A stretch of DNA of 40,202 nt from positions 1-40,202 of the IMG/VR virus record IMGVR_UViG_3300021957_000103, one strand, 5' to 3'. The DNA comes from a virus. The translations under genes were made by a program, and so were the position numbers. Below the pieces are notes generated by a model, which made no database searches, was not told where the DNA came from, and saw only the letters and a list, made by a program, of their open reading frames with translations. Positions 5,673 through 38,482 of the stretch are shown here, in pieces. Every line of letters begins with the position of its first letter. The stretch's first letter is position 1.

Positions 5673-6124
5673 TGACTATTGCAACTCCTAACAATCAAAT
5701 AGTCTCCAGTTCTGGAGCACCTATTAAAACTAAAAACACAACTACCACTGAAGGAAAGAAAGTAAGTGAAGCAGAAGCTAAAGCAAAACTAGCGTCTCAA
5801 CTTCCTGACGTTAAAGGGTTCCGTTTATTATGTATGGTACCTCAAGCTGAAGAAGCTTATGAAAGTGGGTTGATTAAATCAGATGAAGTTAAAAGAGTTG
5901 AGGAGCATTCGACTGTATGTTTGTTTGTTATGCAACTTGGAGATTTAGCTTACCAAGATAAGGAAAGATTCCCATCAGGTGCATGGTGTAAAGAAGGAGA
6001 TTTTATTATTACACGTGCCTACTCAGGAACTAGAATTAAAATTCACGGAAAAGAATTCAGAATTCTGAATGACGATATGGTCGAAGCAGTAGTATCTGAC
6101 CCTAGAGGATATGAACGTGCGTAA
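5672..6124 (+). CDS. GroES-like co-chaperonin
   Basis: A 150-residue protein whose core (about 44-141) follows the order of GroES. It has a strand start GFRLLCMVPQAEEAYESGLI, in which the GLI at 66-68 falls where the hydrophobic tripeptide of the GroES mobile loop sits. Then come CKEGDFIITRAYSGTRIKIH (106-125) and EFRILNDDMVEAVV (128-141), which match the GroES pattern VGDxVLxxxYxGTxVKxxGxEYxIxxxxDILAVV. GroES rings cap GroEL; phages such as T4 (gp31) supply their own to fold capsid protein. About 40 extra N-terminal residues are Ser/Thr/Lys-rich and probably disordered. The gene sits between portal and scaffold, in line with a role in head assembly. Similarity was judged by eye. Confidence 0.72.
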   Translation: MTIATPNNQIVSSSGAPIKTKNTTTTEGKKVSEAEAKAKLASQLPDVKGFRLLCMVPQAEEAYESGLIKSDEVKRVEEHSTVCLFVMQLGDLAYQDKERFPSGAWCKEGDFIITRAYSGTRIKIHGKEFRILNDDMVEAVVSDPRGYERA

Positions 6125-6572
6125 TAAAGAGTATGACAAAGCGTATCATCTGAAGAACAAAGAGAAACGTAATGCTCAATCTAGAGCTTATCGTGAGGCT
6201 AATAAAGAAAAGTGTAATGCTCAAGCTAAAGCTTATTATGAAGGCAACAAAGAGCGATGGACTGAGTATAAAGCTAAATGGTATCAAGAGAACAAAGCGT
6301 ATTATAGAGCAAAAGATGCATTACGAGGGTCTCGTAAGAAAGCAACAAATGAGATTACAAGTTCTGAAGATAAAGAAATACTTAGAGAAATTTATGCGTT
6401 AGCTAAACAACGAACCTTAGAAACAGGGTTTGCTTGGGAAGTTGACCATATACAACCATTATCAAAAGGTGGTAAACACTCATTAGATAATCTACAGGTG
6501 GTCCCAAGAATTTGGAATCGTCGTAAACACAACCGCAACGCTGATAAGTACGTCAGTGCACAGGAGAAATAA
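6111..6572 (+). CDS. Free-standing HNH endonuclease
   Basis: A 153-residue protein. Its C-terminal part has the HNH signature: EVDHIQPLSKGGKHSLDNLQ followed by a C-terminal N-rich RRKHNR. The N-terminal half is made of repeated AYREANKEK-like units (short Tyr-x3-Asn-Lys-Glu helices) that probably bind DNA. Such enzymes are often homing endonucleases that nick or cut an empty allele and spread. The ATG overlaps the end of the co-chaperonin gene by 14 bases, and the stop lies just before the scaffold start, so the gene is inserted without breaking its neighbours. A second HNH gene of the same design lies at 15686. Confidence 0.85.
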   Translation: MNVRNKEYDKAYHLKNKEKRNAQSRAYREANKEKCNAQAKAYYEGNKERWTEYKAKWYQENKAYYRAKDALRGSRKKATNEITSSEDKEILREIYALAKQRTLETGFAWEVDHIQPLSKGGKHSLDNLQVVPRIWNRRKHNRNADKYVSAQEK

Positions 6573-8678: not shown

Positions 8679-9587
8679 ATGGCTATTTCAAGAGCACAGC
8701 TCCTTAAGGAGCTACTTCCAGGTCTTAACGCGTTATTCGGTTTAGAATATGACCGTTATGGCGAAGAACATAAAGAGATTTACGAAACTGAATCTTCTGA
8801 CCGTTCTTTCGAGGAAGAAACAAAACTGTCTGGCTTTGCTAACGCACCAGTCAAAAACGAAGGCGCAGCTATTGCATATGATAATGCACAAGAAGCGTTT
8901 ACATCACGTTACAACCACGTAACAATTGCTTTAGGTTTCAGTCTAACTGAAGAAGCGGTTGAAGATAATCTATATGATTCATTATCAGCTCGTTATACTA
9001 AAGCTCTTGCACGTTCAATGGCTAACACAAAACAAGTTAGAGCAGCTAATGTTGTTAATAACGGTTTTAATGCAGCCTATACAGGTGGTGACGGTGTACC
9101 TCTATTCAGTGCAGCACACCCGTTAGTTTCAGGTGGCACTAATAGTAATACACAAGATACACCAGCTGACCTCAGCGAAACATCATTAGAAAACGCAGTG
9201 ATTCAAATCGCAGCATGGACTGATGAAAGAGGTTTATTAATTGCAGCTAAACCACGTAAGTTGGTTATTCCACCAGCATTACAATTCGTGGCTACTCGTA
9301 TATTAGAAACTCAACTTCGTGTTGGTACTGCTGATAACGATATTAATGCAATGTATACAAACAGCTCTATCCCAGAAGGTTATACAGTAAACCATTATCT
9401 AACAGATACTGATGCTTACTACTTAACCACTGATGTACCTAACGGTATGAAGCACTTTGAAAGAACTGCTTTAACAACTTCAATGGATGGTGATTTCGAT
9501 ACAGGCAACGTAAGATATAAAGCCCGTGAAAGATATTCATTCGGTTGGAGTGATCCACTAGGTATGTGGGGTTCACCAGGTGAATAA
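8679..9587 (+). CDS. Major capsid protein (Mu gpT-like, HK97 fold expected)
   Basis: A 302-residue protein of the usual size with a strong AAGGAGA site. The opening MAISRAQLLKELLPGLNALF, the central PLFSAAHPLVSGGT and the segment ERGLLIAAKPRKLVIPPALQ are typical of Mu gpT-like major head subunits. An HK97-type fold is expected from the family. It forms the icosahedral shell, with the scaffold at 6574 as likely assembly partner and the GroES-like protein at 5672 as a possible folding helper. It is the last gene before a strong terminator, so it closes the head transcription unit. Confidence 0.85.
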   Translation: MAISRAQLLKELLPGLNALFGLEYDRYGEEHKEIYETESSDRSFEEETKLSGFANAPVKNEGAAIAYDNAQEAFTSRYNHVTIALGFSLTEEAVEDNLYDSLSARYTKALARSMANTKQVRAANVVNNGFNAAYTGGDGVPLFSAAHPLVSGGTNSNTQDTPADLSETSLENAVIQIAAWTDERGLLIAAKPRKLVIPPALQFVATRILETQLRVGTADNDINAMYTNSSIPEGYTVNHYLTDTDAYYLTTDVPNGMKHFERTALTTSMDGDFDTGNVRYKARERYSFGWSDPLGMWGSPGE

Positions 9588-9621
9588 GTAGTTTTCATAG
9601 TTCTACTTAAGCACCACCCTG

Positions 9622-9651
9622 AAAAGCCCGGCTCCTCTCTGCTGGGCTTTT
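9622..9651 (+). terminator. Rho-independent terminator after the capsid gene
   Basis: AAAAGCCCGGC (9622-9632) pairs with GCTGGGCTTTT (9641-9651) around an 8-base loop, with one G-U pair, and the stem ends in T-rich sequence. It lies 34 bases after the capsid stop and would end or attenuate the head operon. The A-rich left arm could make it act weakly in the other direction too. Confidence 0.85.
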
Positions 9652-9679
9652 CTCTATCTAACACTCATGAAAATCCTTA

Positions 9680-9707
9680 TTGCGAGCATTTACCATTCAG
9701 ATACAAT
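9680..9707 (+). promoter_or_regulatory. Promoter candidate for the pqqA-like gene
   Basis: TTGCGA (9680-9685), a 16-base spacer and TACAAT (9702-9707, five of six consensus positions) lie between the upstream terminator and the pqqA-like ATG. The expected leader is only about 23 bases and includes AAGGAGA (9724-9730). An inverted repeat TACAA-N5-TTGTA (9702-9716) overlaps the -10 and could be a binding site for a regulator. Confidence 0.5.
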
Positions 9708-9716: not shown

Positions 9717-9736
9717 ACTAACTAAGGAGAACTACT

Positions 9737-9808
9737 ATGTGGACTAAACCCGCTGCTACAGAAATGCGTTTTGGTTTTGAAGTAACAATGTACGTAATGA
9801 ATAAGTAA
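9737..9808 (+). CDS. pqqA: PqqA-like precursor peptide of PQQ
   Basis: A 23-codon gene, easily missed because of its size. The peptide starts MWTKPAATEM and continues RFGFEVTMY followed by VMNK. It matches bacterial PqqA in length and pattern: W-TKP near the start, then G-F-E-V-T-M-Y, with Glu at residue 15 and Tyr at residue 19 exactly as in the 23-residue Klebsiella peptide. In bacteria PqqE cross-links this Glu and Tyr (with PqqD as carrier), and the pair becomes the cofactor pyrroloquinoline quinone, used by periplasmic methanol, alcohol and glucose dehydrogenases. AAGGAGA lies 6 bases before the ATG. No pqqB-E gene is visible, so the peptide would have to be processed by host enzymes. 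The gene sits alone between two terminators with its own promoter candidate. Confidence 0.85.
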   Translation: MWTKPAATEMRFGFEVTMYVMNK

Positions 9809-9833: not shown

Positions 9834-9856
9834 AAGGGGCTTAGGCCCCTTTTTTT
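9834..9856 (+). terminator. Rho-independent terminator after the pqqA-like gene
   Basis: AAGGGGC (9834-9840) and GCCCCTT (9845-9851) form a perfect 7-base-pair stem with a TTAG loop, followed directly by a T run to 9856. It lies 25 bases after the pqqA-like stop. Confidence 0.9.
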
Positions 9857-9903: not shown

Positions 9904-11148
9904 ATGAAAAAGATAAAAGACATGGTAAAAAACTTTTCTGAAAAAACAAATAAACCAAAAGCAGAGCCTAAACCTAAAGCTGAACCTGATGAAGAAATTC
10001 CAGGATTAGTGCCTGTTAATAAGTATGCAAGACCTTTTGAAGTTACGGGTACGGGTATTCTATTTCCTGATGGCACACTTCAAAAGACAGCACAGGGCGG
10101 AAGTGCAGTAATTGACCCTTCGTTATCTGCACAAGTACAAAAAAATACTGCAGATATTGCAAAAAATACAGATGATATAACACAAAGCTACACTAAAACA
10201 CAAACAGATAGTTTACTAGATAGCAAAGCTAATGTTGGAGATTCTTATCTTAAATCTGGAACTTATAGTAACACTGAAATAGACGGAAAGCTGTTTACTA
10301 AAGCAAACAAAGATGATGCCGTATGGACATCTAAAAATAATATTGCAACTATAACTCAAGAGAGTGTCTTTAAAGGCGACATAAATACTAATCCAACAGC
10401 AGCCGACGGATACTTTAATATTAAATCTCAAGCTCCTATAAATGCTGAAGGTCAACCAGACTATAGTGTTGCATATGGCATAAATATAGATTTAACTGAA
10501 GGTAACTCTGCAAAACACACTTTTAAAATAACTAATGATGAAGGCTCAATTTTTAGAATTAAAGGTGGAAGCAAACCAACAGGTTTCTATACGGGGGCAA
10601 TAGAAAATGGTAGTAATTTAGTTAATAAAGAATATGTAGACAAAGCTGTTAAAGATGCAGGTGGTTCTGAACCTGTTATATATGTAGCAAAACATTCAGA
10701 GTCTATACCTATAGCCTTAAGCTCATCTACAAATGGACGTTTGTCTATGCAATACCAAGATGTAACAGAAGGTGACCCTAGTTGGCTAGTAACAGACGAA
10801 TGGGGCGATCAAAAATGGACACCTACGATTGCAGGATGGTACAACATGACTTGGTCTTACTATTGGAAAGGACCATTTCATACTCTTAAGGGTAGTGTTT
10901 ATTACAAAAAAGGTTCAGCTACAGCAACTAATGAGCGGTTGAGTCAGTTCGCAGCAGATAAAAATGCAACAGATATCAAAGGTGTTCACTTGGAATGGTG
11001 GATAGGAACAGCCACTATACTGAAATACTTTAACGGGGTAGATGATAATTTACAAATAATATGGAACTTTGAAAGTAAAGGTGTTGATTTGTATGATAAA
11101 ACTATCGTTCATGAGTCAAATAAATTTACAGCATTTAAAGTAGGGTAG
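9904..11148 (+). CDS. Putative tail fibre protein
   Basis: A 414-residue protein. The first 40 residues are Lys/Glu/Pro-rich. Next comes FPDGTLQKTAQGG (about 54-66), a frequent motif at fibre shaft starts. The shaft follows, with units such as NTADIAKNTDDITQSYTKTQ and SNTEIDGKLFTKAN that fit a trimeric coiled or helical stalk. The last 150 residues are rich in Trp, Tyr, Ser and Gly and look like a beta-sandwich head that could bind the host surface. It is the first gene after the pqqA-like unit and its terminator; the ribosome site is weak (GAGA region). The receptor is unknown. Confidence 0.68.
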   Translation: MKKIKDMVKNFSEKTNKPKAEPKPKAEPDEEIPGLVPVNKYARPFEVTGTGILFPDGTLQKTAQGGSAVIDPSLSAQVQKNTADIAKNTDDITQSYTKTQTDSLLDSKANVGDSYLKSGTYSNTEIDGKLFTKANKDDAVWTSKNNIATITQESVFKGDINTNPTAADGYFNIKSQAPINAEGQPDYSVAYGINIDLTEGNSAKHTFKITNDEGSIFRIKGGSKPTGFYTGAIENGSNLVNKEYVDKAVKDAGGSEPVIYVAKHSESIPIALSSSTNGRLSMQYQDVTEGDPSWLVTDEWGDQKWTPTIAGWYNMTWSYYWKGPFHTLKGSVYYKKGSATATNERLSQFAADKNATDIKGVHLEWWIGTATILKYFNGVDDNLQIIWNFESKGVDLYDKTIVHESNKFTAFKVG

Positions 11149-15464: not shown

Positions 15465-15686
15465 ATGGCAGAATATAAACAACCAAAAGAAGTAGCACTA
15501 CCAAAACCTACAGAATACCCAGCTAGAAGACGAGGTAAGGTTTTTGGAACAATGATGGCTAACATCAATAGAGGACCAAACAAACTATCAGGCTATCCTG
15601 ACACAGATGTTAAAAGAGATGGCGTAGAGACAAGAGGCAATGGTGCAGCAACTAAAGGTACAAAGGCTAGGGGGCCTTTAGCTTAA
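15465..15686 (+). CDS. Small protein with RGxGAATKGxKARGPxA tail
   Basis: A 73-residue basic protein, with TAGGAGA before the ATG. The C-terminal part GVETRGNGAATKGTKARGPL is a peptide motif that I associate with phage structural modules from marine samples. The rest (KPTEYPARRRGKVFGTMMAN) is basic and lacks clear secondary structure. It lies between adaptor genes; a virion role is likely but unproven. The stop overlaps the ATG of the HNH gene by one base. Confidence 0.65.
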   Translation: MAEYKQPKEVALPKPTEYPARRRGKVFGTMMANINRGPNKLSGYPDTDVKRDGVETRGNGAATKGTKARGPLA

Positions 15687-16102
15687 TGCCCTATAAAAAC
15701 CCTGAAGATAAAAAAGCTCATACCAAAGCTTGGCGACAAGCTAATAGAGAAAAACATAGAGCTAGTACTAAAGCTTGGTACGAAGCTAACAAAGAAGAGA
15801 AACTAGCTAAAAACAAAGCTTGGGCTCAAGTTAATAAAGATAAAGTAAATGCTTTTGCAGCAAAAAGAAGAGCGGCTAAATTAAATAGAACACCAAGTTG
15901 GCTGACTAAAGAAGATTTAGGTAAAATAAAAGAGCTTTACAAAGAAGCACAGAAATTAAGAGAAGAGACAGGAGAAGAGTGGCATGTGGACCATATTATT
16001 CCACTACAAGGAGAGTATATCTCTGGACTGCATGTCCCTGATAATTTGCAAGTGATAAGAGCAACAGAAAACAAAAGAAAACACAATAGGTACACAATAT
16101 GA
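15686..16102 (+). CDS. Free-standing HNH endonuclease (second copy type)
   Basis: A 138-residue protein. The C-terminal HNH signature is WHVDHIIPLQGEYISGLHVP, then DNLQVIRATENKRKHNR. The N-terminal half repeats AWYEANKEE-like units, as in the HNH gene at 6111. The two are therefore related and probably moved within or between phage genomes. The gene starts on the last base of one gene and ends 4 bases into the next, so it is inserted without damage. It may act as a homing endonuclease. Confidence 0.87.
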   Translation: MPYKNPEDKKAHTKAWRQANREKHRASTKAWYEANKEEKLAKNKAWAQVNKDKVNAFAAKRRAAKLNRTPSWLTKEDLGKIKELYKEAQKLREETGEEWHVDHIIPLQGEYISGLHVPDNLQVIRATENKRKHNRYTI

Positions 16103-20376: not shown

Positions 20377-21330
20377 ATGCCCAAACCTTTGGAGTTCATT
20401 TTTAATAATGGGTTCTTGAGAAGATGTAGTAACGATGCAAAAGTAAAGGCAACACAAGCTTTTGTTTATATCAGTGCTATAGTTACTATGATTTTTGCTT
20501 GGGACACCACATTATTCCTAATTGCCCTAGCTCTAGGGTGGGTTTGTTTCGGGCTATGTGTAAGTGTAGGACTACACAAATATGCAGCTCATAGAACTTA
20601 CGTACCTAAAAACCGACTTATCAAATGGATTGTATTATGGTTTGCTACTATAGGTTCTCTAGGTAGTACCATCTGTTGGGCTGCAGGACACAGAGCTCAT
20701 CATAGACATTCAGATCACATTGAAGACCCTCATAGACCTCATGGTAGCTTATGGCATAAGTTTAAGGTTTGGTTTTATTACGTCCCAGCATTTAATATAA
20801 ACCCTATTATCATTAAAGACTTATCTAGAGATAAAGACCATGCATGGTTCCATAGAAATTACTACAAAGTTATATTTAGTTATGTTGCTTTGTTATTCTT
20901 TATAAACCCTGCGTATGTAGGATACTTCTATGGCATCCCAATTTGGTATACGTTGATTGGTATTAGTTGGGCTACAGTAATTGCACATATCCCTGTATTA
21001 AGCTACGGACTTCCAGGTAATTGGAGAACTTACAACTCTAAAGATTACACAGTAAATAGTCACTTCTGGTCTATTATGTTTCCAGGTGAAGGACTACACA
21101 ATACACACCATGCAGTACCAGGTCTGTGGAATAATGCAATTAACAAAGGTGAGTTTGATTTAACTGCACCGATAATAAAGTTGATTGGTAAACCAAATAA
21201 TGCTACAGTTAGAAATCACCCGCCAATAAGGAAAGGGTTTAAAAAAGTTAAAGATGAACTTAGAGAGGTGCAAGACTACATAGACGAGTATGATAAGACT
21301 CATTCAAAAACAGGCCATTATACTGCCTAG
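20377..21330 (+). CDS. Fatty acid desaturase (membrane di-iron)
   Basis: A 317-residue integral membrane protein, with AAGGAT before the ATG. All three His boxes of acyl desaturases are present: HKYAAH (67-72), HRAHH (105-109) and HNTHH (241-245). Together they hold the two irons that use O2 to put a double bond into an acyl chain, probably a delta-9-type activity. Hydrophobic stretches (about 27-65, 83-103, 165-185 and 188-210) place it in the inner membrane. Electron donors are presumably from the host. It opens a cassette with a cupin, an acyl carrier protein and two oxygenases. It is unusual to find it inside tail genes. Confidence 0.93.
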   Translation: MPKPLEFIFNNGFLRRCSNDAKVKATQAFVYISAIVTMIFAWDTTLFLIALALGWVCFGLCVSVGLHKYAAHRTYVPKNRLIKWIVLWFATIGSLGSTICWAAGHRAHHRHSDHIEDPHRPHGSLWHKFKVWFYYVPAFNINPIIIKDLSRDKDHAWFHRNYYKVIFSYVALLFFINPAYVGYFYGIPIWYTLIGISWATVIAHIPVLSYGLPGNWRTYNSKDYTVNSHFWSIMFPGEGLHNTHHAVPGLWNNAINKGEFDLTAPIIKLIGKPNNATVRNHPPIRKGFKKVKDELREVQDYIDEYDKTHSKTGHYTA

Positions 21331-21739
21331 CCACAACGGTGGTGTTTGCTGTGTTCGCTATTCTATCCTAGGACTTATAAACAAAGTCTGCATCAATGTT
21401 ATCTACGCTGACCTAGAAGATTTTCATGACCATCCATGGAACTATATATCTATTATACTGTGGGGTGGATATAAAGAGTCTCAATGGAAAGATGGAAAGG
21501 TTACCACTAAAACCTATGGTCCCGGAAGTATTCTAATAAGAAAGCATAATCAATTTCACAAGCTTGAACCTACTGGCAAAAAAACTATTACCCTGTTCTG
21601 GAAAGGAATAAAAAAACGTAACTATATTAATTGGGTAAAAGATAATATAATATACCACGAGGCAAAGTTTTGGTTGAAGCAAGGTTATACCAAAGCTAAA
21701 ATGAAAACTATTTTTAACCAAATGAAAGACTACAAATGA
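21290..21739 (+). CDS. Cupin-like metal-binding protein
   Basis: A 149-residue protein overlapping the desaturase end by 41 bases; no other ATG is available in the first third, but a later non-ATG start cannot be ruled out. The centre shows a cupin pattern: FHDHPWNYISIILWGGYKES (H46, H48 and E63), then YGPGSILIRKHNQFHKLEPT (H86 or H90). These would hold a metal, typically Fe(II). Such small cupins include dioxygenases, isomerases and sugar or lipid-modifying enzymes, so the reaction is not known. Its stop overlaps the acyl carrier gene by 4 bases. Confidence 0.7.
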   Translation: MIRLIQKQAIILPSHNGGVCCVRYSILGLINKVCINVIYADLEDFHDHPWNYISIILWGGYKESQWKDGKVTTKTYGPGSILIRKHNQFHKLEPTGKKTITLFWKGIKKRNYINWVKDNIIYHEAKFWLKQGYTKAKMKTIFNQMKDYK

Positions 21740-21972
21740 CTAAACATGAAAAAGAAGTAAAAGATTTATTAGTAGAGAGTATTAACAAACTAGAATTTGA
21801 TGCAATAAAACTTACTGACACGCTAGAAGATTTAGGTGCAGACTCTTTGGACTCTGTTGAAATTATTATGAGTCTTGAAGAAAAGTATAACATCAAGATA
21901 TCAGAAGACGTATTTGCTGACATACACACCGTACAAGACATAGTGAACTATATTAATGATACAGTTCGATAG
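21736..21972 (+). CDS. Acyl carrier protein
   Basis: A 78-residue acidic protein of the typical size. The site for 4'-phosphopantetheine is Ser37 in LGADSLDSVEIIMSLEEKYN, the classical DSLD motif with the following recognition helix. The start has helix I (KEVKDLLVESINKL) as in bacterial ACP. It would carry an acyl chain for enzymes of the cassette after a host phosphopantetheinyl transferase adds the arm. It overlaps the cupin gene by 4 bases and the next gene by 17, so the cassette is translated as a tight unit. Confidence 0.95.
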   Translation: MTKHEKEVKDLLVESINKLEFDAIKLTDTLEDLGADSLDSVEIIMSLEEKYNIKISEDVFADIHTVQDIVNYINDTVR

Positions 21973-22486
21973 ACTAGATACTATAACTCATGATTGTGCG
22001 GAAGTATGGAATTTAACAGGAGTATGCAATAAACGTATAGCTGAGGAGACAATGAAATTTGTAGGTCAGGTTCATCATCCAGATAGTAGAACTACTAGAA
22101 GCGAAGACTCTATTATTGACGATACTGCCCCTGCTACTAAATTATTATTTGAAGAGATTGAAAAAGTTTTAGCCCAAAGAGATTTACAGCAGGTACCCAA
22201 TCAACATTGGGGACAAATTCACAGACAATATGAGTCAACAGAAATGCATGACCATACTCCGTGGGATGTGGCTTGGGTATATTATGTTAGGGTTCCTGAA
22301 GATAGTGGGCTATTAGTATTTAGTCAGTTTCAAGGGTGGACTAATAGATATGAGCATACGCACTACCCCGAAGTAGGACAACTTGTACTGTTTCCTGGAT
22401 GGATGGTACATAGAGTAACTAAAAACTTTAACACAATTCCTAGAATAAGTATTTCAGGAAATGCAAATTATATAGAGGAGAGATAA
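21956..22486 (+). CDS. Fe(II)/2-oxoglutarate-type oxygenase
   Basis: A 176-residue protein. The C-terminal half shows a double-stranded beta-helix pattern: EMHDHTPWDVAWVYYVRVPE (H98, D99, H100), then PEVGQLVLFPGWMVHRVTKN (distal H152), and RISISGN (R163 to bind the co-substrate). This is the plan of small phage 2OG-Fe(II) oxygenases, which hydroxylate a protein, nucleic acid or small molecule. It starts 17 bases before the acyl carrier stop. Substrate unknown; the neighbours point to an acyl or carrier-bound substrate, which is inference. Confidence 0.78.
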   Translation: MIQFDRLDTITHDCAEVWNLTGVCNKRIAEETMKFVGQVHHPDSRTTRSEDSIIDDTAPATKLLFEEIEKVLAQRDLQQVPNQHWGQIHRQYESTEMHDHTPWDVAWVYYVRVPEDSGLLVFSQFQGWTNRYEHTHYPEVGQLVLFPGWMVHRVTKNFNTIPRISISGNANYIEER

Positions 22487-23061
22487 TGAGTATACCTAAT
22501 TTTATAGAGGTGTATCCTACGTTTGATAAAGAGTTTTGTGATTACGCGATCAAATGTTTTGAAGAAGCAAACGAACACGGGTTGTGTAAATCTAGGCAAG
22601 AGAAAGAAAACGTCAGTAGTATGTTAGTAGATGATAGTTCAGTTCATTTTCCTGTTTATGATTTCCCAATAACTCACATGACATCTTCTCTAATAGGACA
22701 ATTTGATGCAGGGTTTTTAGCTGCTCAACAGGGATACTATGCTACTTATGGACAGTTGCAAGAAGTAGGAGCCCTAAGATACTACGAAGCTAAACTACAA
22801 AAGACTCATCCGGGACAGGGGTACCATACTTGGCATTGCGAAGCAGGGGGACGAGAATTTCAAACAAGAGTATTAACTTGGACTGTATATTTAAATGATG
22901 ACTTTGATGCAGGAGAAACAGAGTTCTTATACCAGCAATATAGATACAAACCAAAGATGGGAGATATAGTTATCTTCCCCGCAGCATTTACTCACTCTCA
23001 TAGAGGTAATTCACCTATAGGGGGTGTCAAGTATATTATCACAGGATGGCTAGAGTTCTAG
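22486..23061 (+). CDS. 2-oxoglutarate/Fe(II) oxygenase (prolyl-4-hydroxylase-like)
   Basis: A 191-residue protein that starts on the last base of the previous gene. Metal ligands are probably H117 and E119 in YHTWHCEAGG, and H170 or H172 in FPAAFTHSHRGNSP. K182 in GVKYIITGW fits binding of 2-oxoglutarate. WTVYLNDDFDAGETEFLYQQ is the usual strand following the first ligands. The use of Glu instead of Asp in HxD/E is seen in some members. Substrate is not known; prolyl residues or a small molecule are both possible. It closes the cassette; the next promoter-like element begins one base later. Confidence 0.82.
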   Translation: MSIPNFIEVYPTFDKEFCDYAIKCFEEANEHGLCKSRQEKENVSSMLVDDSSVHFPVYDFPITHMTSSLIGQFDAGFLAAQQGYYATYGQLQEVGALRYYEAKLQKTHPGQGYHTWHCEAGGREFQTRVLTWTVYLNDDFDAGETEFLYQQYRYKPKMGDIVIFPAAFTHSHRGNSPIGGVKYIITGWLEF

Positions 23062-29315: not shown

Positions 29316-30578
29316 ATGAATATAATTCAGATACAAGATAGATTAAAAGGTGTTTCAGATGATGCTCTGAAAGGTTACGTAACTAATCCTTCAGGAGATG
29401 TTCCTACCTATTTAGCGTTAGGTGAGATTGGACGTAGAGAAGATGTTCGTAAAGAGTATCAAGCAGCTCAAGCTGACCAACCACAAAAGACTGTAGCTGA
29501 AGAAAAACTAGCAGCAATGCCTCAAGGTATTGGTTCATTAACTGAAGGTATGGCAACTTCAGAACCTCAAGGAATAACTCAACCACCAATGCAGTCTATG
29601 AATCCTGCAATAGCAGAGACTGGCGTAGCTAATCTAGCTACACCTAATATGCCTCAACAAAACTTTGAAGCTGGTGGTATTGTTACTAATCAAATAGGAA
29701 TAGATTCAAATCCTTATTTTCCTTTTGACTCCGAAGTAGGAGGTACATATGGTATGCCTCAAGAACCTATGGTTAATGATTATAAAGATTACTTACAGGA
29801 AAAGAAAGATGCTTTCGGTATAGGCAATGAATATTATGAAGACGAAAGAGAAGCTATAAAATTAGAAAAAGAAGAGTTAGCAAAAAGAAGAAAACAACTA
29901 CCTTATGATGGTATGATTAGGGCAGGGTTAAATATTGCTGCAGGTCAATCTGATGACTTTGTAACTAACGCAGCTAGAGGAGCAATACCAGCATTTAATA
30001 AGTATGGTGAAGAAGCAGAGTCTGTTCGTAAAGAAGAAAAATTAAACCGTAAGGAAGATAGACTTATAAACAAACAAGTGAGAGCTGAAGCTATGGGTGA
30101 CATGGCAGGGTTTGATGCATACAATAAAGAAATCAGAGCAACACAACTTAAGCTTATTGAAATAGAAACTGATAAATTAAGTAAAGCTCTTACGAGGGGA
30201 GTAGCTGCTAACTCCGCTGAATATAAACTAAGAGCTGAAGCTATGGATAAAGCCATCAAAGTAATGGGCGGAGAGTATGGCTCAACTGGTGCTCTAGTAA
30301 CTAAGTTTGGTGATGATAAAGAAGGATATAATAAAGAACTAGTGAAAAACTTCAGACAACAATATACCCTTCTAGGCGGTGCAGATGCTAATCTAGCAGG
30401 CATTATGGATACTGTACTTACACCAGAGGATGAAGGAGGTTTACAGCCAAGAGCAAAAGGAGTAGCAAATACTTCGGCATCTACTTCTACAGAAACTTCT
30501 ACAGAAGGTGAAATAATTACAGCACCAGACGGAAAAAAATATAGAAAATTACCTAACGGCAAATACACCCCAGTATAA
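29316..30578 (+). CDS. Putative internal virion protein
   Basis: A 420-residue protein. The N-terminus (QIQDRLKGVSDDALKGYVTN, then PTYLALGEIGRREDVRKEYQ) has the helical pattern found in internal proteins of marine short-tailed phages. A later segment, LPYDGMIRAGLNIAAGQSDD followed by FVTNAARGAIPAFNKYGEEA, is a second common piece. The long charged helix after it may be coiled. The C-terminus is ITAPDGKKYRKLPNGKYTPV. The stop shares a base with the giant gene, so the two are coupled; the role is probably in ejection. Confidence 0.65.
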   Translation: MNIIQIQDRLKGVSDDALKGYVTNPSGDVPTYLALGEIGRREDVRKEYQAAQADQPQKTVAEEKLAAMPQGIGSLTEGMATSEPQGITQPPMQSMNPAIAETGVANLATPNMPQQNFEAGGIVTNQIGIDSNPYFPFDSEVGGTYGMPQEPMVNDYKDYLQEKKDAFGIGNEYYEDEREAIKLEKEELAKRRKQLPYDGMIRAGLNIAAGQSDDFVTNAARGAIPAFNKYGEEAESVRKEEKLNRKEDRLINKQVRAEAMGDMAGFDAYNKEIRATQLKLIEIETDKLSKALTRGVAANSAEYKLRAEAMDKAIKVMGGEYGSTGALVTKFGDDKEGYNKELVKNFRQQYTLLGGADANLAGIMDTVLTPEDEGGLQPRAKGVANTSASTSTETSTEGEIITAPDGKKYRKLPNGKYTPV

Positions 30579-33500
30579 TGGACAGACAGGAATTCACAGC
30601 CGAAGAATTAGGGCTTGAAACTACCCAAGTTAAGCCCCCCTCAGAGCAAGTAGAATTTACAGCTGAGGAATTAGGTCTTACACCTGAACAAACTACCCCC
30701 GTACAACAAGAATTCACTGCTGAAGAAATAGGTCTTGCGCCTGAAGAACCAGAACGCGGAACATTTGTAGGCGGTTTCTTTGGTTCAATGGGTGACACAA
30801 TAGATGTAGCGGATGTAGGTTTAAGTACCGTATTACCTGGCGGTAAAGATGCTAAAAAAGCAGCTGAAGACCGCATGAAAGAACAACAAACAACCCCCCA
30901 AAGAGCAAGATTTAGTTATGCTGCTATTGAAGATGCATTCAAAGTAGGCGGAGTAGAAGGACTAAAAGAATTAGTTTTACAACTTCCAGGTGGTGCAGGA
31001 GAAGCATTAGGTATGCTAGGACCTTCTGTTGCTGCTGGTATTGCTGGCGGTGCGGTAGGCGGTCCTATAGGGGCACTTCTAGCTATCGCAGCTTCATCCT
31101 TCTTGCCTAACTTAGGTGGTAACGTTATGGAGCAGGCAGCTGAAGACCTTGCTCAAGGCAGACCTGTAGATATAGAGACAGGTAAAGCCATCATAACAGC
31201 AGTTGGTCAAGCAGGTATAGATGTTCTTCCTTTTAAATTTGCAGACCCTTTAAAAAGATTAATAGGTATAGATAAAAAGTCTGGCGGTGAATTAAGAAAA
31301 CAACTTGCTGAACAAGGGCTTACTAAAGCAGTAGGTAAAGACGCGTTAGCTATTATAGCAACTGAATTACCTGCTGAAATATCTCAAGAAATACTTCAAA
31401 AAGTCCAAGCAGGGGTAGACCCCTTTACAGAAGAAGCAATCGCTGAATATAAAGAAGTAGCTGCGTTAGTAACTCTAACAGGTGGAGTAGGTGTTTATAC
31501 TGGAACTAAAAATAGGTCTAATGCTAGAAAAGAGATTGCCGAAGAACAAGCTATAGAAGAAGAGAATAATTTAAAAGAAGAAGCAGATGGTTCCGACACT
31601 AGACAACAAGCAATCAATGCTACAATTAAAGAAGAACAAAATGTAATAAAAGCAGAAGAAGAAGTAAAAGCTGCTGAAAGAGTTAAGAAAAATAAAATAA
31701 CTGTTATTGACGAACAGTTTATAAAAGACTTAGGTATCAGTCCTAAGACTAGAGCGGGGCAACAACTACTAGGCATGGACTTAACTGACCCAGCTAACCT
31801 AGAGATGATAGACAATATTCTTGCAGAAGAAAACTTACAAATTAAGAATAATAAAGAAGCTGTCAAGAACTTTAGAAGAAAAGTAAAAAGAGATAGAAAG
31901 AAATTATTAAAAGCTCAAGAGGAGATACAAATTGAAGAACAGCCCGCCCCTGAAAGAAAAAGAACTAGAGCTCGCAATAAAGTATCTGACGGAGACGCAC
32001 CCGTCGTTACCACCGGAACTGGAACATCTGACACAACAACAGTGGATACTAATAGAACAGGTACTAGAGGACTTGCTACAACAACTGGAGCAAGCAACGA
32101 TACATTAGTAACACCTAAAGTAGAAACACCTAAAATAGAAATAGAAAAGAAGAACCCTTTAGTTAAAGGTAAGGCAGGTAAGAAAGCTAAAGTAGGGCGT
32201 ATAAATAATGGTGCAGTGCAAGTAATAGAAGGAGTTTTAGAAGATGGCGCTAACGGATTACAGTTAGTTACTACGCAAGGTAGGACAAAAATTACAATTC
32301 CTTTAAATGAACAACAAATACTTAACCCTACCAAAAAAGATTTAGAGAAATTAGAAGTTAAAGCTCAAGAAGTTAAACCAGCTCCTGTATCAGAAGTTAA
32401 AGATAAACCTAAAACTAAACCTAGTTCTCCAGAAAGAAAGCTACTAGGAGATACTTTAAACGAAGCTACAGAAGAAGAGCTTAATGCAGAAGGTTATGAG
32501 TCTTTCACAGAGTTAGATGAAAAAGGTAATGAAAGAAAAAGATTCCGTAGTATAAAAACTAAAAAACCTTTGTTTGCAAAAGCAACTACTGAAACAGAAA
32601 GACAGCTTGCTGAAGTAAGAAAACAAAAACAACTAGCAATAGAAAGAGCAGATAACCAAAGAAACCAAGATGGTAGAGTTTCTCCAGCCTATAGAAAACC
32701 TATTATGCAGTTGCAACAACTGGAAGATAAGTTACTTAAGCAAGATGCTCAAGAGAAAAAACAAACTACTCCAGAACAACAAGAACTATTTGCTAAAGAC
32801 GAAACTATATCTGACACTGGAGAAACTAAACAATCAGTAATGAGTTCGTTTATATCAGAGTTTGGAAAGAACGTAAACTTAGGAGTAAAACGAGGTCTTC
32901 TTAATATAGTAGATACTGTTGCTGATTTACCTAATTCTATTCCTAACGTAGATGTTCTTCCTAATAATGTTAAAGCTATTTACTTTGATGGTAAGGCTTA
33001 TTTTATAGCAGATAGAATTACTAAAGAAGATGCACCTCGTATGTTGTTGCATGAAATAGGAGCTCATTATGGGTTAGTTGGCATGCTAGGTAAAGCTAAC
33101 TATGACCGTGTAGTTAAGTCTTTAAGAGATAAAAAAACATCTGATGCAGAAATAGAAGCAGCATTTAAATATGTTAAAGATTCCTATCCTGAACTTACTG
33201 AATCATCTGATGACTTTATACAAGAGGTCATTGCAAACATAGCAGAGGATGCTCCTAATAATACAGTCTACCGTAGAATTGTAGGGTATATAAAGAACTT
33301 CCTATCTAAACTAGGTATGGGTTGGAACGTAGATAACATTACTGCAGCTCAAATACAAGATATGGTTCAGCATTCTGTAAGAGTATCTCTATCTCAACCT
33401 GATATAAATCCTACTACTCAATCTGCATTAGCAAGCAGGGTTGTAACGGAAGTAGGACAACTATTCTATAGTCCACTAGGAAAAGCTATTGCTAGTCAGA

Positions 33501-36500
33501 AAATAGAATCTATGTCTCCTCAAGAATGGATGGACTATCTAAATAAGAAAGGTAGAAAACTAGGGTTTGTTAATCAGTTAGATTCTACGGGCATTATGGA
33601 TTGGATGAAAATGCTTCAAAGATACTACAATGAGGATATCCCTACAAATGATATGGATGGGTATGAGTTAGATAGTAGAGGGCGTTTAAGTAAAGATGAT
33701 ATTCTAGCTTGGTTAGGTCAATACGATGTAGTTGTAGAGAGTATAACTCCTGAAGGTCCTATGTCTGAGGCTGAAATAGACAACATTAGAGTGGAAGAAA
33801 GAGAAAGAATTAGAGAAGAAATTGAAAACAATGGCACATATGATGATGTGCAAATGGAAGTAGATGAAGAAGCAGGATATGTAGATGACCAGATAGATGG
33901 TGTATACAGAATATTTGGTTCTGAACATAGAGGACAAGACCAAGACTTTAAAGAAGAACCTTATGCAGTATTTATTGAGGAAGAATTATTAGAGACTGAA
34001 CCTGTTAGAAAATACTATGAGCTTGCTCAAGATAAAGGTTTTGATGTAAGAATTGTTCCTTCAGAAAAAGGCGAGTTTGGACAGTATGGAGCAGAAGATA
34101 GAGCTCGTGATTATCTTTATGAAACTCATAACCCAGAAATAGAAGAAACAAATAGACTAGTAGAAGAAAGAATGGCTGAGATTGTTGATACGAGAGTTGA
34201 TGACATTATAGAAGAAGCTACCCAAGAAAGAGATAATAGATATGGCGACATGCAAAGAACTAGAGATGATACAGGAGGAGTGCCTGAAGAATACTTTGAA
34301 ATTATATTAGCCCTAGATAATAGAGGTGGCAATATGGGTAATGTATACGAGTCTCCTCACTGGGAATCTGTGCAGAATCCTGTGCTACATATACGTGCAG
34401 ATATAAGATATGACCAATCAGGCAATAAAGTATTGTTTGTAGAGGAAGTGCAATCAGATTGGGCAGAGTCTAGAAGAAAGAACAAAAGCCAAGGATATAA
34501 AGACGCTAGAAAAGATAGAGATAAAGCTTTTGTAGAAGATACTCAGCTATGGACTAGACTAGCTGTAAAAAGAATTGTTAGATTAGCAGCGGAAAATGAT
34601 GTAGATAAAGTAGCTTTCTTAAATCCTGCACAGGCGGTTAACGTACACTACAGAACAGATAAAGCGGCTGAAGCATTCTACGGTGAAATACTACCATCAG
34701 TCGTACGTAAAACTATAAACAGTCTTGAAAATACTAATAGGCGCACTAATGAGGAAATTAAGTTTAAGCCTGTATATAAAGTAGACGATAAAACTCTTGA
34801 CTTACTTAGAGAGGTATACGTTGAAGGCAAGAACATAATGCAAGGTAGTAGAGGTTACAGTGATTTTGATAGAGAAGATTCTACCCCAGCTGATAAAGAA
34901 CGCTTTAAAAGAATAAATGCTCTTGTAAGTAAATTAAATACTATGTCTGATTCCGTTGAATCCTTCAGAGATATTTATGAGTTTGCAAATAGAATAGTTA
35001 AGATAACTCAATCTTATATGGATAATACTGACTTACTACGCCCTGAAACTAGAAAAGAAGTTCTAGAACAACTAACTGGGTCGTTTAATAAATTCCAAGA
35101 GCAGATGGCTAATCTATACCGTATAGATAATGCACGTAAAGAAATCCAACGTAGGCTAGAAGCAGATAGAAGGGCTAACCCAGACGTACCTATGGGTATG
35201 AATGAAACACAGAAAGCATTAATAGAAAGAGATAGAGAGCTTCAAGAAGAAAGAGTAGGTGCACCTCGTCCTGATATCCGACAATATAACTTCTTAAATT
35301 TATTAATAGGTAAGGGCGTATTAACTTTCCCTGAAATAAATAATAGGCAAGTAGGGTTTACTATGACCCCTAAATTAAGACAGGTAGGTAAAGATGCAAT
35401 GCCTATGTTTGCAAAACAAAATAGTAAGACCAGAGCACAATTAGATAAAGAAATAGAAGATGGTAAATCTGCTAAAGAAAAACTAAATGAAAAACGTAGA
35501 GAGAATAATAAAGATAATGATAAATACCAAGATGAGGAATTCTTTAAAAAGAATGAAACTGTAGGGCAAAAAGCTAGAGGGTTTCAGAATGCTGTGTTTG
35601 GTTATGATATAGGTCTTTACAATAAGTTAAAAGACCGAATAGCTAAAGTAGCTAAAGCTAAAAACGTTCAAGAAGCTAGAAAATATATAGAAGATACTCT
35701 AGCAAAAATAAGTACAGCACAAGCAGTCCATGCACAGACATTAGCTGGAGCATTTAAAGAGCTTGGTAATATAGTTTATAAACCAGCTATAGAGAAGTTT
35801 GAAGCCTTTAAAGATGTTAATAGTATGCATAACATTAGTTTAAAGGTGCATGCATTCACACGTAAGTATTTTAAGAAAAAAGGTATTATTACTAAAGCAG
35901 ATGTAATTCAAGCAGAAAAGTTTATTTCTCAAGCTATTGTAGCTCTTCAATTTAAACGTATAAAAGAAAATAATGCAGTAATTGAGCAACAAGCTAAAGA
36001 CCTTGTAAGACAAGGTAAGGCACAAGCAGCTAAAACATTACTTCAACAAAAGTATGTTCTTGTAGAGATGGATGACAAGCTAATTGATAAACACATTGAA
36101 AGATTAAAAGATTATCCAGAGATAAAAGAAATTCAAGAGATGTGGATTGGAGTAAAAAATAATACACTTGATTTCTTATTAGATACCGAAATAATAGACC
36201 AAGAACAATATGATGCTTACACTCAAGAAGGAGGAGAGGGTTTAGCTGATGAGGATGTATTTATACCTCTTTACAGACAAGGACAATCAAGCCTACCTAG
36301 ATCTGTTGCGTCAGGTACTAATAGTGGTAGAGGTGTATTTGTTAAGAGAAAAGGTACGGCTGAACCTGTATCCAATGTATTTTTAAATATGGATACCTTT
36401 GTGCAGGCAGCTATTACACAAGGTATAGCGAACAAAACTGCTTTAAATAAGATAAGAGCTTCTGAAGAAGTACAAGAAGAAGGCGATTTAATTGTACGCC

Positions 36501-38482
36501 CTGTGATAGAACCAACAGAAGGTTTTGAATCTCATGCAGTTATGGTTAGTGAAGTTGGCCCTGATGGTAAACAAAGAAAACAAACATATGAATACGCTAA
36601 TGAGATGTATGCAAAAGCAACTAACGGAGCAGCATCCGCTATGCGTTCAGGTAATGTATTCTTATCTAACACCTCTACTCTATTAAGAGACTCTATTGTT
36701 CTAAACCCTGTATTTGGTGTAGCTCAAACATTTGTACAAGATATGTATAGTGCTATGTATACCTCTGGTTTAAGATACGGGTGGCTAACAATTCCTTTAA
36801 GAGTATTATATGAATTTCCTGCGACTATCCTAAATCTTAGTGGTACACATAAAGAACTATCTAAGTATGGTGCTGTTGGAGGGTATGCATTTAAGCAGAA
36901 CGATAACACTATTGATGCAGATATAAATGCCCCTGGATTTTATAATAAACTTATACGAGCACTTAGTCGTATCCCTGGCACTAATATTCCTACAGGTTTA
37001 ACTCAAGAAGGTGCAATCCAAGTAGGAGATACAAGGTTATCTTTAGGTGGTCTTCTAAATAGAATTGCTATGGCTTCTGATAACTCTGTAAGACAAGCCG
37101 TATATAAACAGGCAATGATGGAAAACAAGAGCCAAAGAAGAGCTCTTGAGATGGCATTTGAAATAATTAACTTTAGAAAAATGGGCGACAGTGAGTGGAT
37201 AACTATGGGTCGTCAATATATTCCTTTCTTTGGTGCCGCTCTACAAGCATTATCAGTTCAAGGTAAAGTAATACAAGGTCTTGTTAAAGCTCAATCAGGA
37301 GTTACTCCAGCTAGTTTAAGAGAAGCTAGAGTAAACTTTATGATTACTTGGGCTGGAACAGCGGGCATGACTCTAATATATAACATGCTAATGGATGATA
37401 ATGAAGAAGAGATAATGGAACAGTTTGGCGATATGGCTATGTCTGAAGAATTAAAAAGACATTTAAGAGAAGTAAGAAGAAACTTTGGTCAACTAGACAA
37501 TAAGATTAGAGATAGAAGATTTATTATAGGAGACGATGGATTCCATTTAACTCTACGTCCTGATATATTTACTTTTATATCTAAAATAATACCTGAACAA
37601 GTTTACAATACTATAGTTGCAGAAAGTCAAGATGCCGCTAAGTTCTGGTTAAGCATTAAGAGAAATTTAAGGGAGATAGTATCATTGAACTTAATTCCTC
37701 AAGTTATACGACCTATGATAGATGTAATGTATAACGAAGATAATAGAACAGGAAGACCGATTGTGCCTGATAGAATGCAAGATTTAAAACCTGAACAACA
37801 ATATACTCCTCGTACTTCTGAAGCAGCTAAAAAGATAGCAGATATTATTGGTGCATCTCCTATAAAAGTAGATTACTTCTTTAGACAATACACTGGTTAC
37901 ACTGGAGCTTTAGTATCATTAGTAACTGATTCATATTTCCTAGAGAACGATACTAACCCTAATAGAAAAAATAGACCCGCTGTATCTACACGAGATAGGA
38001 TTGCATCTTTCCCAGGCATGACTAACTTCTACTCAAGGGATAGAGACAATAGATTCATGTCTGACTACTATGAACTAAAGAATAAGGCATCTCAAGTTGC
38101 TGCTATATTTAGAGCTTTAGATAGCTCTCCTAATCCTGAAGACCAGTTAAAGGCTCAACAATTTCTTAATGAAGATAATAACCGTCTAATATATAACACT
38201 AATGTGCAGATTGAACAGATACAACAAGTGCTTACAGAGATAAGAAAAGAACGTAAACGTATATATGACTACCCTGCAAGTGCTACACTTAACGGTAAAC
38301 CTATGACAGACGAACGTAAACGTGAATTGATGTTGAGATTAGATGCAGAAGAACTACAAGCTCTGCAGTCAGTGCATGACTTAAGATTAAAAATTTATGG
38401 TATTAATCCTTTCTATAATTCAGAGAAAAATGAATATATGCCGGGCTTTGATTCTAGTAGTTTCTTTGAGAAAAATAACTAA
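30578..38482 (+). CDS. Giant internal/ejection polyvalent protein (2,634 aa)
   Basis: The largest gene here. Visible parts in order: three copies of EFTAEELGL-like peptide (about 5-13, 26-34, 45-53); a hydrophobic Gly-rich stretch (145-175, VAAGIAGGAVGGPIGALLAI); charged helices; a possible peptidase-like segment MLLHEIGAHYG (H825, E826, H830; the His spacing is not the normal HExxH); very acidic helices; a segment KVLFVEEVQSDWAESRRK (about 1284-1301), of a type seen in phage polyvalent proteins; and a C-terminal region with LRDSIVLNPVFGVAQTFVQD and further hydrophobic helices (about 2025-2275). Such giants are carried in the head and are thought to enter the cell with the DNA. No lysozyme motif was seen. 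The stop overlaps the convergent gene by 4 bases. Confidence 0.75.
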   Translation: MDRQEFTAEELGLETTQVKPPSEQVEFTAEELGLTPEQTTPVQQEFTAEEIGLAPEEPERGTFVGGFFGSMGDTIDVADVGLSTVLPGGKDAKKAAEDRMKEQQTTPQRARFSYAAIEDAFKVGGVEGLKELVLQLPGGAGEALGMLGPSVAAGIAGGAVGGPIGALLAIAASSFLPNLGGNVMEQAAEDLAQGRPVDIETGKAIITAVGQAGIDVLPFKFADPLKRLIGIDKKSGGELRKQLAEQGLTKAVGKDALAIIATELPAEISQEILQKVQAGVDPFTEEAIAEYKEVAALVTLTGGVGVYTGTKNRSNARKEIAEEQAIEEENNLKEEADGSDTRQQAINATIKEEQNVIKAEEEVKAAERVKKNKITVIDEQFIKDLGISPKTRAGQQLLGMDLTDPANLEMIDNILAEENLQIKNNKEAVKNFRRKVKRDRKKLLKAQEEIQIEEQPAPERKRTRARNKVSDGDAPVVTTGTGTSDTTTVDTNRTGTRGLATTTGASNDTLVTPKVETPKIEIEKKNPLVKGKAGKKAKVGRINNGAVQVIEGVLEDGANGLQLVTTQGRTKITIPLNEQQILNPTKKDLEKLEVKAQEVKPAPVSEVKDKPKTKPSSPERKLLGDTLNEATEEELNAEGYESFTELDEKGNERKRFRSIKTKKPLFAKATTETERQLAEVRKQKQLAIERADNQRNQDGRVSPAYRKPIMQLQQLEDKLLKQDAQEKKQTTPEQQELFAKDETISDTGETKQSVMSSFISEFGKNVNLGVKRGLLNIVDTVADLPNSIPNVDVLPNNVKAIYFDGKAYFIADRITKEDAPRMLLHEIGAHYGLVGMLGKANYDRVVKSLRDKKTSDAEIEAAFKYVKDSYPELTESSDDFIQEVIANIAEDAPNNTVYRRIVGYIKNFLSKLGMGWNVDNITAAQIQDMVQHSVRVSLSQPDINPTTQSALASRVVTEVGQLFYSPLGKAIASQKIESMSPQEWMDYLNKKGRKLGFVNQLDSTGIMDWMKMLQRYYNEDIPTNDMDGYELDSRGRLSKDDILAWLGQYDVVVESITPEGPMSEAEIDNIRVEERERIREEIENNGTYDDVQMEVDEEAGYVDDQIDGVYRIFGSEHRGQDQDFKEEPYAVFIEEELLETEPVRKYYELAQDKGFDVRIVPSEKGEFGQYGAEDRARDYLYETHNPEIEETNRLVEERMAEIVDTRVDDIIEEATQERDNRYGDMQRTRDDTGGVPEEYFEIILALDNRGGNMGNVYESPHWESVQNPVLHIRADIRYDQSGNKVLFVEEVQSDWAESRRKNKSQGYKDARKDRDKAFVEDTQLWTRLAVKRIVRLAAENDVDKVAFLNPAQAVNVHYRTDKAAEAFYGEILPSVVRKTINSLENTNRRTNEEIKFKPVYKVDDKTLDLLREVYVEGKNIMQGSRGYSDFDREDSTPADKERFKRINALVSKLNTMSDSVESFRDIYEFANRIVKITQSYMDNTDLLRPETRKEVLEQLTGSFNKFQEQMANLYRIDNARKEIQRRLEADRRANPDVPMGMNETQKALIERDRELQEERVGAPRPDIRQYNFLNLLIGKGVLTFPEINNRQVGFTMTPKLRQVGKDAMPMFAKQNSKTRAQLDKEIEDGKSAKEKLNEKRRENNKDNDKYQDEEFFKKNETVGQKARGFQNAVFGYDIGLYNKLKDRIAKVAKAKNVQEARKYIEDTLAKISTAQAVHAQTLAGAFKELGNIVYKPAIEKFEAFKDVNSMHNISLKVHAFTRKYFKKKGIITKADVIQAEKFISQAIVALQFKRIKENNAVIEQQAKDLVRQGKAQAAKTLLQQKYVLVEMDDKLIDKHIERLKDYPEIKEIQEMWIGVKNNTLDFLLDTEIIDQEQYDAYTQEGGEGLADEDVFIPLYRQGQSSLPRSVASGTNSGRGVFVKRKGTAEPVSNVFLNMDTFVQAAITQGIANKTALNKIRASEEVQEEGDLIVRPVIEPTEGFESHAVMVSEVGPDGKQRKQTYEYANEMYAKATNGAASAMRSGNVFLSNTSTLLRDSIVLNPVFGVAQTFVQDMYSAMYTSGLRYGWLTIPLRVLYEFPATILNLSGTHKELSKYGAVGGYAFKQNDNTIDADINAPGFYNKLIRALSRIPGTNIPTGLTQEGAIQVGDTRLSLGGLLNRIAMASDNSVRQAVYKQAMMENKSQRRALEMAFEIINFRKMGDSEWITMGRQYIPFFGAALQALSVQGKVIQGLVKAQSGVTPASLREARVNFMITWAGTAGMTLIYNMLMDDNEEEIMEQFGDMAMSEELKRHLREVRRNFGQLDNKIRDRRFIIGDDGFHLTLRPDIFTFISKIIPEQVYNTIVAESQDAAKFWLSIKRNLREIVSLNLIPQVIRPMIDVMYNEDNRTGRPIVPDRMQDLKPEQQYTPRTSEAAKKIADIIGASPIKVDYFFRQYTGYTGALVSLVTDSYFLENDTNPNRKNRPAVSTRDRIASFPGMTNFYSRDRDNRFMSDYYELKNKASQVAAIFRALDSSPNPEDQLKAQQFLNEDNNRLIYNTNVQIEQIQQVLTEIRKERKRIYDYPASATLNGKPMTDERKRELMLRLDAEELQALQSVHDLRLKIYGINPFYNSEKNEYMPGFDSSSFFEKNN

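Follow-up and report, generated by a model that had tools for sequence, protein, structure and literature searches.

A stand-alone pqqA gene in phages of methylotrophic bacteria, with an upstream dyad shared with host PQQ genes

The 40,202-base IMG/VR virus record analyzed here (hereafter the window, meaning that whole stretch of DNA) contains terminase, portal and major capsid genes, and carries together with them a 23-codon pqqA gene, which encodes the precursor peptide of PQQ. We consider it probable, at roughly 80%, that this is a functional phage pqqA, i.e., that its product would be processed by the host as an extra precursor that keeps PQQ-dependent methanol oxidation supplied, from a unit that the host itself would drive; this judgment is built on sequence comparison.

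Identity, surroundings and host of the window gene

The frame translates as the 23 residues given in Table 1, followed by a stop codon. The peptide scores about twice the curated cut-off in both the Pfam PqqA family PF08042 (42.4 bits, E 6.4e-11; cut-off 21.1) and the NCBIfam equivalog TIGR02107 (40.4 bits; cut-off 20), and it is a short peptide with the Glu-x-x-x-Tyr pair joined by PqqE (Glu15 and Tyr19). A search of PHROGs found no family for it. These results bear out the initial annotation, which had described a 23-codon pqqA-like gene with Glu15 and Tyr19 in place and had proposed a comparison with PqqA families; the strong ribosome site that it reported is likewise present (Table 1). Its placing of the gene between head and tail genes holds approximately, in that the capsid gene is located upstream, whereas the 414-residue ORF downstream has no known function. 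No pqqB, pqqC, pqqD or pqqE was seen in the ORF list of the window, again in agreement with what had been described. By capsid and terminase, the closest named phages are a set that includes Pelagibacter phages HTVC023P and HTVC027P and cyanobacterial phages.

Table 1. Features of the window: positions, strand and the evidence for each
Feature	Position	Strand	Evidence or description
Small HNH endonuclease gene	6111-6572		Lys/Arg-rich N-terminal stretch similar to that of the gene at 15686-16102
Major capsid gene, upstream of the pqqA unit	8679-9587	+	phrog_371 major head protein, E 3.9e-21
Strong hairpin between the capsid gene and the pqqA unit	9621-9652	+	12 bp, loop 8; -21.9 kcal/mol, z -7.2 vs shuffles
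Dyad TCATGAAAATCCTTA, a TCATGA-N3-TCATGA site; putative operator	9665-9679		Top-scoring site in the 40-kb window with both matrices
Sigma-70-like promoter, TTGCGA (9680-9685), 16 nt, TACAAT (9702-9707)	9680-9707	+	Consensus scan, 9/12
Ribosome-binding site AAGGAG	9724-9729	+	Sequence; AGGA/GGAG in the same place in 111/116 distinct phage copies
pqqA, 23-codon PQQ precursor peptide MWTKPAATEMRFGFEVTMYVMNK	9737-9808	+	PF08042, TIGR02107, identity with host PqqA
Predicted intrinsic terminator 3' of pqqA	9834-9856	+	7-bp stem then T run; -12.8 kcal/mol
Next gene 3' of pqqA, 414 aa, no assigned function	9904-11148	+	ORF list, PHROGs search
Small HNH endonuclease gene	15686-16102		Lys/Arg-rich N-terminal stretch similar to that of the gene at 6111-6572
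Host-type metabolic run	20377-23061		Fatty acid desaturase (PF00487), acyl carrier protein (PF00550), two 2OG-Fe(II) oxygenases
Single 2634-aa ORF	30578-38482		Only recognised domain LPD38 (large polyvalent protein associated domain), residues 2305-2455

Elsewhere in the window, the genes of the host-type metabolic run are possibly a lipid-modifying set, and the two HNH endonuclease genes are probably of the homing type.

A search of bacterial genomes with the pattern EMRFGFEVTMY gave matches mostly in Methylophilaceae. All of the 100 genomes of this family that we sampled contain pqqA, with 1 to 12 copies each, and 99 of them contain pqqE, usually as one copy; that a genome can hold multiple pqqA genes was already known (PMC4109929). 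The window peptide is identical to the PqqA of OM43 strain LSUCC0665 and of Methylophilus methylotrophus, 3 of 72 bases separate the window ORF from its nearest host counterpart, and four peptides are common to the phage and host PqqA sets. Since the peptide is the same as host PqqA, its processing by host enzymes needs no new assumption. The host of the window phage, as judged from the pqqA gene and not from an isolate, is very probably a Methylophilaceae methylotroph.

Distribution of pqqA among phages

Using the window peptide as a tblastn query against 50,697 phage records, we obtained 12 hits, of which 9 are records of phages whose isolation hosts were Methylophilales or Methylophilaceae (Venkman, P19250A, MEP301, MEP401, MEP402 and four Melnitz records) and one is a spring-water phage of unknown host, ctXG6705. 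The remaining two are Acinetobacter contigs labelled as Acinetobacter phage MD-2021a, which we judged to be mislabelled chromosome and excluded as phage; the one inspected, record CAKLQF020000010.1, contains ppk together with a complete bacterial pqqABCDE operon and looks like a bacterial chromosome. The true phage hits are therefore to methylotroph phages only, save the one spring-water phage. Phages MEP431-434, HIM624-A and Venkman EXVC038S, which the taxonomy names, were not among the hits; they may be outside the collection searched or may lack the gene. In the phage records that we inspected, pqqA is either unannotated or overlapped by an ORF on the opposite strand, as anticipated by the remark in the initial annotation that genes this short are lost in most annotations.

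We also collected pqqA loci from IMG/VR using degenerate DNA patterns. The FGFEVTMY core is present in at least 120 contigs, each with a complete peptide, and residue invariance in this set is partly by construction, since the search required that core. Unbiased conservation rests on the tblastn phage hits and on relatives of the window capsid gene, which were fetched without a pqqA criterion: 10 of 80 such relatives contain an intact pqqA, located 153-588 bases downstream. Those bearing the gene are mostly the closest ones, and most relatives at 83-85% identity do not carry it; with so many close relatives lacking pqqA, phages of this type cannot all depend on the gene. The recurrence of the ORF in cultured phages, IMG/VR contigs and capsid-gene relatives demonstrates that it is more than a chance reading frame, and nucleotide diversity of 0.091, 0.069 and 0.341 at the three codon positions of phage pqqA indicates selection on the protein. 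The gene occurs in several unrelated phage gene contexts, and the frame, Glu15, Tyr19 and the ribosome site, on whose conservation the earlier proposal had been made to depend, are kept in both related and unrelated methylotroph phages. As a host-type metabolic gene in true phage genomes, surrounded in the window by terminase, portal and capsid genes and found in cultured phages too, pqqA can be regarded as a putative phage auxiliary metabolic gene. In a few virus contigs (L407, L408, L027, L078 and L108) we observed divergent PqqA peptides, such as MKWETPSFEDLRFGFEVTMYINASN, mostly lacking the dyad described below; the hosts of these contigs may be other PQQ-making bacteria.

At the 126 phage pqqA loci that we examined, there was no match to PqqB, PqqC, PqqD, PqqE, XoxF or MxaF, i.e., phage pqqA is not linked to pqqBCDE. 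Such linkage is not defining in these hosts, since pqqB fell within the fetched stretch in only 29 of 120 host genome loci. Scans of IMG/VR with OM43 PqqE and PqqC, which reach close relatives only, confirmed nothing, and the gamma-type PqqA core IGFEVTMY, our contamination control, was present in 2 contigs versus at least 120 with FGFEVTMY; on these grounds we rejected bacterial contamination of IMG/VR as the source of the gene. Addition of recombinant PqqA to a cell extract gave PQQ in work cited in PMC9851590. Carriage of only the precursor may be explained by PqqA being destroyed one-for-one with each PQQ made while the enzymes are reused, which would make PqqA alone an economical gene to carry, if supply limits.

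Cassette layout and a shared dyad

The window unit consists, in order, of a hairpin or terminator, a dyad, a promoter, a ribosome site, pqqA and a terminator, with the regulatory parts being predicted (Table 1). The promoter, dyad and terminators are features additional to those first described. The 9/12 consensus match of the promoter is a weak one, by itself no better than shuffles; the first base of its -10 element lies 30 nt from the dyad centre (9672), which matches the phage mode of 30-31 nt. The hairpin on the capsid side is probably a terminator, predicted to insulate the unit from upstream. Terminators within 90 nt past the stop codon were detected for 55 of 114 phage copies and 107 of 122 host copies, versus approximately 5-6% of random stretches. 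With a predicted promoter and terminators of its own, a location between conserved genes, and absence from behind the capsid gene in many relatives of the window phage, the unit has the make-up of a moron-type cassette.

The first sign of the dyad was a k-mer enrichment upstream of pqqA. De novo motif discovery, run separately on 123 host and 116 phage upstream regions, returned the same 15-mer, TAAggAAAATCATGA in hosts (occupancy 0.92) and TaatGAAAATCATtA in phages (occupancy 0.91), a TCATGA-N3-TCATGA site for which we use our own name, the "PQQ box." The log-likelihood was 456 for the real phage motif versus 70-78 for shuffled phage sequences, and the host matrix scored at least 10 bits in 80 of 116 phage upstream regions versus 17 of 1160 shuffles and 2 of 116 with the reversed matrix; these statistics count related sequences separately, and several unrelated phage contexts carry the site. 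A reversed-pattern control was set aside because of its different dinucleotide make-up, and we relied on the shuffles, the reversed matrix and spacing. The dyad also precedes pqqB or pqqAB in each of the 22 Methylophilaceae loci with a readable pqqB start. At a strict threshold, no dyad was found in 50 of the 116 phage copies, so the operator link is common and not universal.

The distance from dyad centre to -10 is fixed, at 53-54 nt in hosts and at 30-31 nt in phages of the types to which the window and P19250A belong and in several further types; phages of the Venkman and ctXG types have, for the most part, the host-like spacing, and both spacing peaks exceed those of 200 shuffles. A single apparent host copy shows the phage spacing and no other, and this (CAIYXB010000030.1) is a P19250A-type phage contig in a bacterial bin, a misbinning betrayed by its promoter spacing. 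A fixed spacing suggests an activator rather than a repressor, and phage pqqA appears to be wired into the host PQQ regulon. By eye, an extra half site (TTCATGA) is often located approximately 15 nt past the dyad in host pqqA promoters, e.g., in L137 and L138.

We also considered, and rejected, a reading of the dyad as part of a methanol-dehydrogenase regulon: no site is present upstream of xoxF in LSUCC0665 or Ca. Methylopumilus, and we therefore call the dyad a PQQ-gene site. A near-perfect dyad (TCATGATATTCATGA) is located between an xoxF-type gene and the following gene in Methylophilus methylotrophus (L348 and L365), and given this the regulon may extend beyond the pqq genes. We lean, by a little, towards the view that Methylophilaceae possess an undescribed PQQ regulon acting through TCATGA-N3-TCATGA at the pqqA copies and pqqBCDE, that phages have put their own pqqA under it, and that in several phage types the site lies nearer to the start by about two helical turns (at about -42 instead of about -65), a difference that would make a class II activated promoter out of a class I one. 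Our search of open-access papers, including for pqqA with promoter and Methylophilaceae, found no earlier description of the dyad.

Precursor supply, alternatives and relation to known systems

In an infected Methylophilaceae methylotroph, the phage would supply extra PqqA peptide, host PqqE with PqqD would crosslink Glu15 to Tyr19, and a host protease, PqqB and PqqC would complete PQQ; PQQ-dependent methanol dehydrogenase (XoxF or MxaF) would thereby stay supplied, and energy and carbon would flow on during host gene shutdown. Since the unit is insulated and its dyad is the one present at the host promoters of pqqA and pqqBCDE, it is probably transcribed by host RNA polymerase with the help of a host activator. 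Transcription during infection, processing by the host, a benefit through PQQ and activator binding at the dyad are the steps that we infer. The suggestion made in the initial annotation, that the gene is an auxiliary one supplying precursor, is well supported by the conserved frame, by the identity with host PqqA and by pqqE being found in 99 of 100 host genomes, host PQQ synthesis genes being something without which that suggestion would fail. Against precursor supply, some hosts may already have more PQQ than they need, terminators were detected behind only 55 of 114 phage copies, and 50 of 116 lack the strict dyad.

The small size of the unit, its abundance in hosts (1 to 12 copies) and the closeness of the nearest host ORF would all fit a passive passenger, either a host pqqA unit gained by recombination and kept without benefit or a set of mis-sorted bacterial contigs. 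This explanation is largely refuted and very improbable: the gene is present in cultured phage genomes, lies between phage genes in the window and occurs in several unrelated phage contexts, its third positions are diverse with the protein constant, the host and a number of phage types, that of the window included, differ consistently in promoter spacing, and PqqE, PqqC and the gamma-type PqqA core are almost absent from the same virus collection. The same evidence of protein-level selection makes it very improbable that the peptide is secondary and that replicated phage dyads soak up a host PQQ-regulon protein, shifting expression of host pqqBCDE and pqqA. Such titration would draw on a dyad common to phage and host and located upstream of host pqqBCDE, one copy of which per phage genome would multiply with replication, but the ribosome site and ORF are kept even in copies with no detectable dyad, and a fixed distance from dyad to -10 is a need of promoter driving and not of titration. 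Finally, any PqqA binds PqqD, and an overproduced substrate can occupy its enzyme, so the phage peptide could, instead of yielding PQQ, inhibit or signal by binding PqqD, PqqE or some other host protein; we give this very little credence, as its sequence is that of the natural host substrate and keeps both crosslinked residues, whereas in an inhibitor one would expect these to be lost or altered.

The window pqqA resembles the chromosomal stand-alone pqqA of Methylophilaceae (PF08042/TIGR02107) in peptide, ribosome site, single-gene layout, terminator and upstream dyad, and differs in being located in a lytic-type phage genome and in having its dyad 30 nt, not 53-54 nt, from -10. Whether a phage gene of this kind had been noted before was left undecided at first; one report exists, from 2020, of PqqA in VP_266, a virus population from Lake Baikal that is T4-like and also carries methanol dehydrogenase; there it was likewise proposed to help methanol oxidation in Methylophilaceae (PMC7678222). 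The window represents a 40-kb phage that is not related to VP_266 and carries only pqqA, and the promoter, operator and spread of the gene were not described in that report. In the papers describing Venkman, MEP301, MEP401/402 and Melnitz, the main text makes no reference to pqqA in the phage. Within the literature searched, four things appear to be new: that carriage extends across phage types and to cultured isolates, that the precursor gene is carried alone, that it forms an insulated cassette, and that the dyad has two spacings. Cyanophage psbA is an auxiliary metabolic gene by which a phage supplies a fast-consumed host component and keeps energy metabolism running; phage pqqA is alike in this, and differs in encoding a 23-residue peptide substrate and not an enzyme or photosystem subunit, and in apparently using a host operator.

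PqqA is the sacrificial precursor of a cofactor on which methanol oxidation depends, and wide carriage of just this peptide by marine and freshwater methylotroph phages would imply that phage production is limited by the supply of PQQ precursor. The gene would tie viruses to methanol turnover in natural waters, and it illustrates how auxiliary genes of 23 codons escape gene finders, even where the isolate has been published. The dyad common to phage and host provides a handle on the control of PQQ synthesis in Methylophilaceae, a question that cultured phage-host pairs make testable.
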